This document shows, piece after piece, positions 6,391 through 47,810 of a DNA stretch of 64,000 bases (within the stretch, counting starts at the first letter, position 1; every line of letters begins with the position of its first letter). A model generated the notes under the pieces. The model was not told the DNA's origin, did no database searches, and worked only from the letters and a program-made list of their open reading frames with translations. The stretch lies in NCBI RefSeq assembly GCF_041154675.1, contig NZ_AP031322.1:1488001-1552000 (forward strand), written 5' to 3'. The DNA is from Sulfurisphaera javensis. Lineage in GTDB: Archaea > Thermoproteota > Thermoprotei_A > Sulfolobales > Sulfolobaceae. The translations under genes were made by a program, and so were the position numbers.

Positions 6391-6693
6391 ATGCTTAAGT
6401 ATGTTGAATATACAAGGCATACAATGGCTGAACCATTAATGACAGTAAATATTTATAAAAAAGTGGAAGATGGCAAGGTAATTTCTACCTTTAAAATTCT
6501 CGTTTATAAAAATATGAGTATAACAGTATTTGAAACTGATAAGTTAGAAGGAGGTCAAGTAATAGAAATGACTTCTGAGAAAATTGATTCTGTGCTAAAA
6601 ATTATTTATAAGTATTACGATGAGAAAACTGATGATATAACAATATTAGGAGAAGAAAAATTAGTAGATGAGTTAGTCGAAAAATTGAAGTGA
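6391..6693 (+). CDS. Small conserved-looking protein of unknown function
   Basis: A 100-residue soluble, charged protein with alternating strands (MTVNIYKK, STFKILVYK, MSITVFET) and a helical C-terminus ending LVDELVEKLK. There is no cysteine, signal or membrane segment, and I do not recognise the family. It is divergent from the M20 peptidase gene and probably leaderless. Its stop codon TGA at 6691-6693 forms part of the C box (GTGATGA, 6690-6696) of a guide sRNA candidate that follows directly, so coding sequence and RNA gene are physically fused at this point. Confidence 0.65.
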   Translation: MLKYVEYTRHTMAEPLMTVNIYKKVEDGKVISTFKILVYKNMSITVFETDKLEGGQVIEMTSEKIDSVLKIIYKYYDEKTDDITILGEEKLVDELVEKLK

Positions 6694-6742
6694 TGAAAAA
6701 ACTGGGACATCAGATTGATGAAGAACCATTCATGCGCTGATT
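6688..6742 (+). ncRNA. C/D box guide sRNA candidate (sRNA-A), predicted 23S rRNA target
   Basis: Boxes in order: C GTGATGA 6690-6696, D' CAGA 6711-6714, C' TTGATGA 6715-6721, D CTGA 6737-6740. Guide intervals are 14 and 15 nt. The D guide (6722-6736) is the reverse complement of CGCAUGAAUGGUUCU. From memory, CGCAUGAAUGG is a conserved archaeal/eukaryotic large-subunit rRNA segment near E. coli position 1940. The N+5 rule would place 2'-O-methylation on the U of CGCAU. The D' guide target (AUGUCCCAGUU) was not recognised with confidence. These RNAs act with L7Ae, Nop5 and fibrillarin. The C box overlaps the stop codon of the upstream gene. Confidence 0.75.
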
Positions 6743-7425: not shown

Positions 7426-8378
7426 CTAACATTAACTTTTTCTCCAGTCATTTTTAACCTTACGGCACAAAAAGAGCAAATCTCCCTTCCTTTTGTTGTT
7501 GGTCTTCCACATATTTTGCACTTCCCTAATTCTTCTTCCTTAATGTACTTTTCTTTCAAAGCTGGTTGTATTTTATTTATGAAATTTTCAACTAGCATTA
7601 ACATATAACCAGGAATAGCTTCTTCCATTTCCTCTAATTTTCTCCTAATAGTGTCTTGCGTTACTCCACCAACTCTGAATGTATGAGGACAAGAATCATA
7701 AAGGAATGGAATTCCTTTGACTATTGCATACGTTAATATTTCTTTTTCGTACATGAGAAAGAGAGGTTTAACTTTCTTTACTTTATATCCTTTTTCTGGT
7801 GGTGTAATTACATCTAGTCTTGCCAGGTCTTGTACATCACCGCTGAAATATCCAGACATAATAAATTGAGCCATATCGTTCAAATTATGCCCAGTTACTA
7901 TTGTATCAGCATTTTCCTCTTCTGCTATTTCAGTTAGTGTGTATCTTTTAACTAAACCGCAAGTGCTACAGATTGGTCTTCTAATTTTATGTTTTGTCTC
8001 ATCGATTGTAAAACCATATCTTTCCTTAATTTTTACTACTCGATATTTTACTCCTAATATTTCAAAATTTTTAACAGCATACTCTGTACTCTTGGAAGAG
8101 TAAGCTTTCCCCATATCTATGCCTAGGTCAATGTTAATTCCTATTATCTCTAAACCTCTATTATCGCCAAGTTTTTTCATTAGATGAAGTAAAGTAGTAC
8201 TATCTTTTCCTCCAGAAACTGCTACAGCTATCCTTTTTGATCCTTCGAACATCTTATACTTATCAACAATTCTTTCAAATCTTCTTTCAAACCATTCTAT
8301 AAAGTGATCCTTACATAATGCTATGTTAGCATAAGGTATCTTAATAATTGCCTTATTTTCGCACTTGCTACATTTCAT
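7422..8378 (-). CDS. ttuA: tRNA 2-thiolation enzyme, TtuA/Ncs6 family
   Basis: A 318-residue PP-loop ATPase. An N-terminal zinc finger uses C3, C6, C22 and H25. The ATP pyrophosphatase motif SGGKDS is at 55-60. Central cysteines lie in RPICSTCG and DSCPHTF; in this family two of them hold the iron-sulfur cluster with a third in the same domain. A second zinc finger ends the protein (CKICGRP then CSFCAVR). The enzyme adenylates uridine in tRNA and replaces oxygen by sulfur supplied by a ubiquitin-like carrier, which stabilises tRNA in thermophiles and at U34. It is the promoter-proximal gene of a pair with the PriX-like gene. Whether the target is U54 or U34 cannot be told from sequence. Confidence 0.92.
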
Positions 8379-8412
8379 AATGCTTAATAATACTTTTATA
8401 CCTTTTAAGTTA

Positions 8413-9099
8413 ATGATGGAAATTTTAGCAGAACTACACCCAAAAAGTAAGAGGGAAAAGATAGAAAAAGAAATTAAAGAGCTTGAAAGCTTTGACGGTT
8501 TTGATATTCCAGATTCTCCGATAGGTTTGCCATCTCCTTTACCTTCAGTAATTGCTACAATTATCAGGGGAAAATATGCAGATAAAAGAATTATTGTTAA
8601 TCAACGGCTTTTAGATGTTAACGAATTGTTTTTAGCTTCTCTTTCCTTAACTTCAAAGCTGATAGATTTTGATATCGCATTTACTAGAGGAGATAAACCA
8701 AAGATAGGGAAAGAAGTAGGATATTTGACTTCGGAACAAGCAATTTTGTTATCAAAAAAATTTAACAAAGATCTTAAGGTAGGCTTGATGATAAGTCTCA
8801 GAAAGGAGAAAGAAGATATTATAAGGAGGCTAAACTTTGAGCCTGCAGATTTCTTCCTAGTTCTCCGTTTAGAAAGTGATACTCAGCTTGATGGATTACC
8901 AACTTCAAAGCTGATTCCTTATGTTATCATTAGAACTGAAAAAAATAAAGAAATAGCTAATACTTTATCTCAACCAGTTATTGATGAAAACAAAGCTTTA
9001 GATTTCATCTATAAGCTTGAAGAAAGAAAAGTTCAAGGAGTATTATTATCAGCATTAGGAGACAATGAAGCTTTAAACAGAATTATAATAAGATATTAA
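8413..9099 (+). CDS. Methylenetetrahydrofolate reductase-like TIM-barrel protein
   Basis: A 228-residue protein with the MetF-type order of elements: an early [10 protein letters not shown] strand with Glu, [15 protein letters not shown] (the D-x-x-D-S-P strand), a long barrel core with [10 protein letters not shown] corresponding to the LTGDxP loop, and a C-terminal part with [11 protein letters not shown]. Archaeal relatives are shorter than bacterial MetF and may reduce methylene-tetrahydrofolate or a pterin analogue using flavin. I chose the ATG at 8413; a TATA-like CTTAATAAT is centred about 26 bases upstream. A longer reading from 8365 would run into the divergent TtuA gene. Confidence in fold is higher than in reaction. 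Confidence 0.62.
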
Positions 9100-9100
9100 A

Positions 9101-9152
9101 GAGTGATGAGACTCCTTTTTCGGAATTATGAAGAGCGGTGTAGGGTCTGATT
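9101..9152 (+). ncRNA. C/D box guide sRNA candidate (sRNA-B)
   Basis: C box GTGATGA 9103-9109, weak D' CGGA 9121-9124, weak C' TTATGA 9126-9131, D CTGA 9147-9150. Flanking AAAGA before C and TCTTT after D could form the terminal stem. Guides are 11 nt (GACTCCTTTTT) and 15 nt (AGAGCGGTGTAGGGT). The D guide would select ACCCUACACCGCUCU; I do not recognise the target. The RNA starts just after the stop of the MTHFR-like gene and runs antisense over the end of the Sir2 gene. The internal boxes are degenerate, as is common for D'/C' in archaea, so this one is less secure than sRNA-A. Confidence 0.55.
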
Positions 9153-9878
9153 CTTTATATAATTAACAACGCATGGAAGGAACTCCTCTACTCTTTCCCT
9201 AACTACTATATCAGCAATACTATCTAATGGGGTTTCTTCAGCATTTAGAATTATTAATTTTCCTCCATTTTCTTTTACAGTTAACGGGATTAGATTAGCT
9301 GGATATACAGTTAATGAACTTCCTATAGAAAGAACTAAATCAGATTCTCTAGCTATTTGTATTGCTTCTGAAATGTTATATACTGGTTCTCCGAAAAGAA
9401 CTACATCTGGTCTAATAACTCCTCCACATTCACATTTAGGAGGTAATTCTCCTTCGTCAATTCTCTTTAAAATTTGTTGACTATCATAAGTTTTTAAACA
9501 TCTTACACAATAACATTTCCTCATTGTTCCATGAAGTTCTATTACGTTCTTAGACCCAGCTAATTGATGTAATCCATCTATATTTTGAGTTATTATAGCT
9601 TTAATTAATCCTAATTTTTCAAGCTCAGCTAATGCATAATGAGCTTTATTTGGCAAAGCTGTAAAAAGTCCTCTCATTCTTAAGGAATAAAATTCCCAAA
9701 ATCCCTTAGGATCTTTGTTAAAATAATCTATTGTTGCTAATTCTGGTGAGTATTTTTTCCATAATCCATTTGGTCCTCTAAAATCTGGAATTCCGGAAGC
9801 TGTACTTATGCCAGCTCCAGTGAAGGCTATTGCAAAAGTTGAGGTTAAAATCATATCACCAACTTTATCACATTCCAT
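9126..9878 (-). CDS. cobB: NAD-dependent protein deacylase, Sir2 family
   Basis: A 250-residue sirtuin. NAD-binding GAGIS is at residues 21-25 with SGIPDFRGPNGLW after it, TQNIDGLH at 97-104, and the catalytic base H116 in IELHGT. The zinc ribbon uses C124, C127, C149 and C151, and GSSLTVYPA lies in the Rossmann part. In Sulfolobus this enzyme removes acyl groups from proteins, including the chromatin protein Alba, and so affects DNA binding. The N-terminus aligns with what I recall of the S. solfataricus enzyme, which supports the ATG at 9878. Its 3' end is overlapped on the other strand by sRNA-B and its upstream region holds sRNA-C. Confidence 0.96.
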   Translation of the reverse strand: MECDKVGDMILTSTFAIAFTGAGISTASGIPDFRGPNGLWKKYSPELATIDYFNKDPKGFWEFYSLRMRGLFTALPNKAHYALAELEKLGLIKAIITQNIDGLHQLAGSKNVIELHGTMRKCYCVRCLKTYDSQQILKRIDEGELPPKCECGGVIRPDVVLFGEPVYNISEAIQIARESDLVLSIGSSLTVYPANLIPLTVKENGGKLIILNAEETPLDSIADIVVRERVEEFLPCVVNYIKNQTLHRSS

Positions 9879-9905: not shown

Positions 9906-9957
9906 AAATGATGAATTTGCCGAGTACAGATAGGTGATGAACAAAACTCATCTGATA
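9906..9957 (+). ncRNA. C/D box guide sRNA candidate (sRNA-C)
   Basis: All four boxes are near consensus: C ATGATGA 9908-9914, D' CAGA 9927-9930, C' GTGATGA 9934-9940, D CTGA 9952-9955. Guide intervals are 12 and 11 nt, typical for archaea. The D' guide (ATTTGCCGAGTA) selects UACUCGGCAAAU. The UCGGCAA core recalls a conserved large-subunit rRNA segment (E. coli about 1670), with methylation then predicted at the second C of UACUC. The D guide (ACAAAACTCAT) target was not recognised. It lies between two minus-strand genes, and its D box is antisense to the last codons of the gene ending at 9948. Confidence 0.75.
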
Positions 9958-13933: not shown

Positions 13934-13957
13934 ATAAAATTACGCTATTTGAATCAT

Positions 13958-15157
13958 GTGAATACTAGTGATATTGTAGTTCTAACTCTTTTAGAGCTCT
14001 CAATCCTTCTAACTGCCTCACAAACTGTTAGATTATTTACTCAGAAGTATTATTTACCTTCTATTTTTGCTGAGATAATTGTCGGAATATTATTAAGCCC
14101 TTATGCTATTGGAGGAGTTATAAATAATTTATTTCACGTTCCTTTATTCGAAATAAATTCTTATTTAGATTTATTTGCTAACTTTTCAGTAATCCTTTTA
14201 GTCTTTGCGGCTGGATTGTCTCACGGTTTTAAAAACTTAAAATCATCAGGTCTATTAGGTTTCTTAGCAGCAACTTTTGGTGCTGTAATTCCCACTGTCT
14301 TGGTTTACTTTACTTTTAGTATTGTTTATCCTTCTCAAGTTTCCGCCTTAATGGGAGCAGCAAGTGCAGCAACAAGTCTTGCGGCAACTTCAACAATCAT
14401 AGAGGATTTTAAACTTTATAAGAGAAAATTTTCTAGGATAGTAATTTCTGCTGCAGCACTTGATGACGTAGTTTCTTTAATTATTCTCTCTGTTGTACTA
14501 GAAATTGAAAGTATTAAAATCCTTTCTTTTTTAAATATTTTATATAATATAACAATTACTGTAATTTCTTGGCTAATTATTCTTTTTTTAGCTGTGTTTA
14601 TAATACCAAGAGTTTTAGAATATGTTAGAGATGATCTTATTAATGATGTTTCTTTAGTAATTCTTTTTTCTGTAGTCTTTTTGATGCTTTTACTCGGGTT
14701 TGAACCTATAATTGCCTCATTTATCGTTGGTATAGCTATTGCAGAAAGCATAAAATCAAGCAAAATTTCATCCTTTACATCAGCTTTATTATCTATATTT
14801 GGACCTATATTCTTTATCTATGTAGGAATGGAAACTCCCATAAAGATTTTCATAAACGCAAATGACGTTCTTTTAGGATTATTAATGTCCTTCTTAGCAA
14901 TTATAGGGAAAATTGCTGGTATCTTTCCTTTTGCTTTTATTTATACTAAGGACTTGAAAGAATCTTTCTTAGCCTCTGTCGGTATGTTACCTAGAGGAGA
15001 AGTAGGTCTAATTGTTGCTACATTAGGTTTGTCTTCAGCTATAATAGATATAAATCAATTTTCTCAGATAATAATTATGGCTTTACTTACAACTATTATA
15101 GGAGGTACTCTATTTACCTTTCTTATAAAGAGATGGATATTAAAACAGTCAGCTTAA
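13958..15157 (+). CDS. Cation/proton antiporter (Kef/NhaP-type, CPA2 family)
   Basis: About 399 residues with some 12 membrane helices (SILLTASQTVRLF, SPYAIGGVINNLF, SVILLVFAAGL and so on). The paired aspartates in SAAALDDVVSLII at about residues 168-171 are the ion-binding DD motif of electrogenic CPA2 exchangers. There is no C-terminal RCK/TrkA nucleotide-binding domain, so it lacks the regulation typical of full KefB/C. It probably exchanges Na+ or K+ for H+ across the cell membrane, useful for pH homeostasis in acid. Starts: TTG 13949 or GTG 13958; I prefer the GTG because of TATA spacing. Its last codons overlap sRNA-D on the other strand. Confidence 0.88.
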   Translation: MNTSDIVVLTLLELSILLTASQTVRLFTQKYYLPSIFAEIIVGILLSPYAIGGVINNLFHVPLFEINSYLDLFANFSVILLVFAAGLSHGFKNLKSSGLLGFLAATFGAVIPTVLVYFTFSIVYPSQVSALMGAASAATSLAATSTIIEDFKLYKRKFSRIVISAAALDDVVSLIILSVVLEIESIKILSFLNILYNITITVISWLIILFLAVFIIPRVLEYVRDDLINDVSLVILFSVVFLMLLLGFEPIIASFIVGIAIAESIKSSKISSFTSALLSIFGPIFFIYVGMETPIKIFINANDVLLGLLMSFLAIIGKIAGIFPFAFIYTKDLKESFLASVGMLPRGEVGLIVATLGLSSAIIDINQFSQIIIMALLTTIIGGTLFTFLIKRWILKQSA

Positions 15158-15199
15158 AGGAATTTCCTCACCAATCAGATACGGTCGCTCACATCATTA
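15147..15199 (-). ncRNA. C/D box double-guide sRNA candidate (sRNA-D), predicted 16S rRNA targets
   Basis: Read on the minus strand: C ATGATGT (15197-15191, one mismatch), D' CTGA (15178-15175), C' GTGAGGA (15171-15165, one mismatch), D CTGA (15152-15149). Both guides are exactly 12 nt. The D guide AATTCCTTTAAG is the exact complement of CUUAAAGGAAUU in the universal archaeal 16S segment at E. coli 910-921; N+5 gives the second A of that run (about A914). The D' guide GAGCGACCGTAT pairs, from memory, with GUACGGUCGC about 20 nt upstream (about G894). Two guides for neighbouring sites of one rRNA strongly support a real gene. Confidence 0.82.
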
Positions 15200-15232
15200 A
15201 GTTATTTATTTTCGTTAACATATTAAAACCTA

Positions 15233-47758: not shown

Positions 47759-47810
47759 GTGCTGAAGTGCCGCGGATCTGATTTATGATGAAGGCTTGAT
47801 TTTTCTGAGA
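47757..47810 (+). ncRNA. C/D box guide sRNA candidate (sRNA-E)
   Basis: C GTGCTGA 47759-47765 (one mismatch), D' CTGA 47778-47781, C' ATGATGA 47785-47791, D CTGA 47805-47808. Guide intervals are 12 nt (AGTGCCGCGGAT) and 13 nt (AGGCTTGATTTTT). The D' guide is GC-rich and stands out in this AT-rich gap; its target would be AUCCGCGGCACU. The D guide target would be AAAAAUCAAGCCU. I did not recognise either target. It stands alone in the gap between the oxidase gene and the gene at 47845. Confidence 0.62.

Follow-up and report, generated by a model that had tools for sequence, protein, structure and literature searches.

The locus and its sRNA anatomy

The window analysed here is a 64,000-nucleotide stretch of the Sulfurisphaera javensis genome. 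On its plus strand a Na+/H+ exchanger (antiporter) gene runs from 13949 to 15157 (Pfam PF00999, E = 3.3e-46). Convergent with it, on the minus strand, lies a candidate double-guide C/D box sRNA whose core, from C box to D box, spans 15149 to 15197. This assignment is based on the sequence, on Rfam alignments below the gathering threshold and on orthologues in 18 of 31 Sulfolobaceae genomes. The mature sRNA probably ends a few nucleotides outside the core.

Read along the minus strand from 15197 to 15149, the core has the order ATGATGT - GAGCGACCGTAT - CTGA - TTG - GTGAGGA - AATTCCTTTAAG - CTGA. The C box, ATGATGT (15191 to 15197), and the C' box, GTGAGGA (15165 to 15171), each have one mismatch to RTGATGA and were placed using the sequence together with the orthologue alignment. 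The D' box (15175 to 15178) and the D box (15149 to 15152) are both perfect CTGA. Between the C and D' boxes is the D' guide, GAGCGACCGTAT (12 nt, 15179 to 15190), and between the C' and D boxes is the D guide, AATTCCTTTAAG (12 nt, 15153 to 15164). A spacer of 3 nt, TTG, separates D' from C'. The first-pass annotation had described four C/D boxes framing two 12-nt guides on the minus strand, and all of them were found where it had put them: C and C' boxes near RUGAUGA and D and D' boxes reading CUGA, in the correct order and with canonical spacing.

Pairing with 16S rRNA

The genome is a single contig of 2.57 Mb in which a single 16S gene was detected (G000:C1:1969625-1971120), and both guides were aligned to this 16S. 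The D guide pairs with it exactly, 12 of 12, at positions 873 to 884, confirming the full complementarity that had been claimed. The D' guide had also been said to pair over 12 nt with a site upstream; the pairing is real, but it covers 10 nt (853 to 862), made of nine contiguous Watson-Crick pairs and one G-U. Its target reads TACGGTCGC with a G just before, which wobbles with the guide's last T, and the two guide bases most distant from the D' box are unpaired. The guides beside the D and D' boxes are thus complementary to the organism's own rRNA, with at least nine contiguous pairs at both sites (12 and 9).

Target sites were assigned by the D+5 rule: the site is the nucleotide opposite the guide base that stands fifth before the D or D' box. 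The predicted sites in the organism's own 16S are A877 for the D guide and G857 for the D' guide, 20 nt apart. In our numbering of this region these are E. coli A914 and G894, which agrees with the earlier prediction of two sites about 20 nt apart at about those residues. G857 (G894) lies in helix 27, and the footprint of the D guide falls on the 3' strand of the central pseudoknot. That footprint, 873 to 884, includes AGGA 878-881, whose complement, UCCU 12-15, stands close to the 5' end of 16S; in general ribosome structure this pairing is the central pseudoknot.

The second-best 16S match of the D guide, at 16S 190, has 11 pairs including one G-U and is weaker than 873 to 884. For the D' guide, position 1880 of this genome's 23S was considered as an alternative and rejected: its 9 pairs, one of them G-U, are poorer than those with 16S and leave the guide unpaired beside the D' box.

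Chance controls

Both strands were scanned for the order C-guide-D'-spacer-C'-guide-D, allowing up to three mismatches in total. The real window gave six hits at five distinct loci, and every locus can be read with two mismatches or fewer. The same scan of 150 dinucleotide-shuffled windows gave 19 hits with at most three mismatches and two with at most two, a chance frequency for the architecture of 0.01 to 0.13 per shuffled window. Four chance elements from 15 shuffles were also scored for their guides, and none of them had guides with at least eight rRNA pairs. Among the five loci of the real window, 15149-15197 alone has both guides on 16S, and 3 of the window's 127,976 12-mers are exactly antisense to 16S.

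The argument that two neighbouring rRNA targets in one RNA would be unlikely by chance is borne out by the rarity of the architecture in shuffles and by the one scan locus in five with both guides on 16S. It could still be proposed that the locus is an accidental resemblance rather than a gene, given that its expression is predicted. This is scarcely credible, being contradicted by the shuffle controls, by the adjacent 16S targets and by conservation in five genera despite diverged flanks.

Conservation across the Sulfolobaceae

BLAST with 61 nt found matches in 16 genomes out of 60, a count that includes the window's genome. A sequence-only model made from 15 orthologues was used to find further ones, and with it orthologues were found in the 18 of 31 Sulfolobaceae genomes, with E-values from 4e-12 to 2e-18. 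They span five genera (g1, g3, g5, g7 and g9); in the other 13 of the 31 genomes the model detected none. An exact-pattern scan of genome contigs gave one match, in Sulfolobus sp. UBA167, and the sRNA region of another genome of the family (G021) reads identical to it. A pattern with the guide order reversed was set aside, as it matched only 16S-like stretches, all of one sequence.

The orthologue alignment is gap-free from C to D. Averaged over pairs of orthologues, identity reaches 0.98 for the D guide (ATTCCTTTAAG). It is 0.97 for the D box and 0.90 along the D' guide segment but 0.30 to 0.42 in flanking blocks of 40 nt, so that constraint on the guides and D box stands above that on the flanks. 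The D' and C' boxes are less conserved than the D guide and D box. The D box is CTGA in every aligned orthologue except L017, which has CAGA, and the D' box is degenerate (ATGA, AGGA, CGGA) in genera g3 and g9. The core of the D' guide, GCGACCGT, is identical in all orthologues seen.

Outside the family the model gave matches at 1e-4 or weaker, which look like other sRNAs or chance. Five of these weak matches in other families (L063, L064 and L066-L068) were rejected as orthologues: they have a helix-27-like D'-side guide but different D guides, which marks them as separate sRNAs. Together with L065 (in G033), all in other families of the order, they look like C/D sRNAs whose guides resemble one or the other of the present pair but are combined differently, which suggests repeated targeting of one 16S region.

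The D' half in genus g3

Guides were compared with the species' own 16S wherever the assemblies contained one; none was found in those of genus g9 or of the remaining g1 species. In the species so compared the D guide pairs over 10 to 12 nt, and the D' guide pairs over at least 10 nt in the window's species and in G007 and G009. In G005 and G014, of genus g3 (which includes Sulfolobus sp. UBA167), the 16S target is TACGGCCGC with an A before it, a U having changed to C under the D' guide. The D' guide of both genomes retains GCGACCGTA. Counted from the box, its pairing is therefore broken at the first position and, by an A-C mismatch, at the seventh; the D' box itself is either ATGA or AGGA. 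Because of the target mismatches and the degenerate D' box, the D' half may be inactive on 16S in g3.

At the g3 loci L016 and L020 (16S L028 and L029; 23S L074 and L075) the D' core is thus kept despite a changed 16S target and a degenerate D' box. The 23S sense strand of G014 has TACGGTCGC, which offers 9 contiguous pairs to the retained D' core and is a possible replacement target for it; the chance of a 9-nt match in 3 kb is about 1 in 100. The equivalent in G005, TACGATCGC, has one mismatch to the core, and this alternative target is absent from the window's own 23S.

These comparisons bear on whether only the D half methylates 16S (at A914), with the D' half serving as an annealing arm, decaying, or redirected, at least in some lineages. 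Such a division would fit the concentration of conservation in the D guide and D box, the degenerate D' boxes of g3 and g9, the g3 change from U to C beneath an unchanged guide and the 9-pair alternative in G014 23S. The window's genome, however, has a perfect D' box CTGA and 10 bp with 16S; the D' core is constant in all orthologues seen, unlike neutral decay; and the 23S alternative is mismatched in G005 and missing from the window's own 23S. We consider this reading unlikely, though worth keeping in view, and prefer the one in which both guides would act on 16S. The sRNA is a natural test of whether a D' guide works after its target and D' box have drifted.

Genomic context and promoter

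The antiporter gene and the sRNA overlap by 9 nt (15149-15157), in which the last two codons, Ser-Ala, and the stop codon cover the D box together with part of the D guide. The gene that ends within the D guide is a Na+/H+ exchanger in g1; in g3 and g5 one of a different family, a Na/Ca exchanger (PF01699), ends at the same place, and g9 has no gene overlapping the sRNA. A divergent molybdopterin oxidoreductase gene is common to g1 and g5. Across L005-L020 the sequence opposite the D box and guide, TCAGCTTAA, encodes the Ser-Ala-stop C-terminus for two transporter families in different genera. The constant element is the sRNA, not the opposing gene.

The first-pass annotation had noted that the RNA is antisense to the last antiporter codons. 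The overlap does exist, but at 9 nt it is incidental, the opposing gene not being conserved. The sRNA might be taken from this overlap with the antiporter 3' end for a cis-antisense regulator of the antiporter gene, yet the shared stretch is merely Ser-Ala-stop, and the guides stay fixed throughout while another gene family lies opposite in g3 and g5 and nothing overlaps in g9. Cis-antisense regulation was rejected, as very improbable, because the opposing gene is not conserved.

Upstream of the sRNA, on the minus strand, a TATA-like element, TTTTAATA (15221 to 15228), begins 31 nt from the C box and is probably the sRNA's own promoter. All 16 orthologues tested have a TATA-like 8-mer at a nearly constant distance, 27 to 36 nt, ahead of the C box. 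Their mean score is 7.56 of 8 by a simple consensus of our own, against 6.08 (s.d. 0.20) in shuffled upstream DNA, with none of 2000 shuffles as good; each flank was shuffled separately, which controls for A+T richness. According to PMC7994747, a TATA-like motif accompanies roughly one in five archaeal C/D genes, and one in four overlaps the 3' end of a gene and carries the stop codon of that upstream gene. The overlapping gene here differs from those in being convergent.

Proposed mechanism

The same genome has genes for the partner proteins of a C/D RNP, namely fibrillarin (PF01269), Nop5 (PF01798) and an L7Ae-family protein (PF01248), all over the Pfam cut-off. The interpretation given in the first-pass annotation is thus supported in its architecture, 16S pairing, site prediction and conservation, and by the TATA-like element and the partner proteins. 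We put the probability that the locus is a gene for a double-guide C/D box sRNA guiding 16S 2'-O-methylation at about 0.93.

The sRNA would be a stand-alone gene in the space that separates the antiporter gene, convergent with it, from the divergent molybdopterin oxidoreductase gene. As a minus-strand transcript, it would probably start from a TATA-type promoter of its own. It would fold into a C/D k-turn and a C'/D' k-loop (with the 3-nt spacer), and bind L7Ae, Nop5 and fibrillarin. The resulting RNP would anneal to 16S at the two sites 20 nt apart, where fibrillarin would 2'-O-methylate A877 (E. coli A914) through the D guide and G857 (E. coli G894, in helix 27) through the D' guide. Annealing would also keep both helix 27 and the central pseudoknot's 3' strand from closing while the subunit assembles. 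Transcription, RNP assembly, methylation and chaperoning are all steps that we infer.

Eukaryotic U3 snoRNA also base-pairs to the small-subunit rRNA around the central pseudoknot. It is much larger and is not a methylation guide, and its likeness to the sRNA is a functional analogy at most. It is distinctly doubtful that the sRNA acts above all as a folding chaperone, in loose analogy to U3, with both arms opening helix 27 and the 3' strand of the pseudoknot; if true, such a role would explain the fixed D' core of g3 despite its degenerate D' box and changed 16S target.

That the main role is to chaperone 16S folding by masking helix 27 and the pseudoknot's 3' strand, methylation coming second, we hold to be rather improbable. 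The D-guide footprint does cover the pseudoknot strand (AGGA 878-881 with UCCU 12-15), and the guide core is retained even with a degenerate D' box. Chaperoning is also proposed for double-guide sRNAs in PMC4644070. Masking is compatible with methylation, however, not exclusive of it, and the pseudoknot would be masked by any guide directed at this segment. The sRNA most likely works by standard C/D RNP guiding; a contribution as a chaperone is plausible.

Relation to known C/D sRNAs

At the gathering threshold Rfam had no family for the locus. Below it, sR28 (RF01136), sR5 (RF01304), sR11 (RF01150) and snoPyro_CD (RF00095) align end to end, with their boxes in register but with different guides. 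The best alignment has E = 0.0027, and the best score is 21.1 bits against a gathering cut-off of 39. The locus was placed outside these four families because all scores are below the gathering cut-offs. The sRNA belongs to a long-known class of RNA. It adds to the Sulfolobaceae a well-supported guide RNA family for which Rfam has no entry, aimed at two 16S residues beside helix 27 and the central pseudoknot. It is otherwise as expected, a thermophilic archaeon typically having dozens of such RNAs.

A literature search for the guide sequences returned no relevant paper. Archaeal C/D sRNAs are mostly double guides with targets often within 100 nt, and helices 3, 18 and 27 are the hotspots in 16S, as described in PMC4644070 and PMC7994747. 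Their main texts do not name the guide pair A914 and G894. The first of them (Dennis et al. 2015, PMC4644070) gives 61 C/D sRNAs for S. acidocaldarius; the pair may be among these and thus already catalogued. For S. solfataricus, a cryo-EM study of the 30S subunit (PMC11698992) gives 25 modifications in 16S. The sRNA shares with the S. acidocaldarius sR series the four boxes, two guides, a core of about 50 nt, two nearby rRNA targets and fibrillarin guiding to the nucleotide that the D+5 rule picks out. Nanoarchaeum equitans sR17, in PMC4644070, has one guide in the same general part of 16S, at A915 in that paper's numbering, which differs from ours, so that identity with the A914 site is not implied. 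It differs in its second guide, which is at the distant U1370/1371, on the other strand of helix 28.

Other candidates in the window and genome

Four other C/D-like candidates are on the plus strand of the window. At 47759-47808 the boxes are good, a BLAST match was found in only one other genome of the genus, and neither guide has a clear rRNA target; the target is perhaps a tRNA, or there is none. The candidate at 9908-9955 has near-perfect boxes and a D' guide pairing 11 nt with the 23S 1837 region (site 1840), its D guide having no clear rRNA target. At 9103-9150, directly after an ORF (8365-9099) and overlapping the 3' end of an opposite-strand ORF (9126-9878), a D guide has 10 nt of pairing around position 2186 of 23S (site 2189).

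The candidate at 6690-6740 again has two neighbouring sites: its D guide pairs 11 nt with the 23S 2104 region (site 2108) and its D' guide 8 nt with the 23S 2132 region (site 2135). Its start overlaps the 3' end of an ORF at 6391-6693, and BLAST found matches in 8 of the 31 family genomes. Elsewhere in the genome, a probable C/D sRNA at G000:C1:600452-600490 (L072) has a D guide, CATCCACCGGGA, with 11 nt of pairing close to where 23S begins and a site at about 24.
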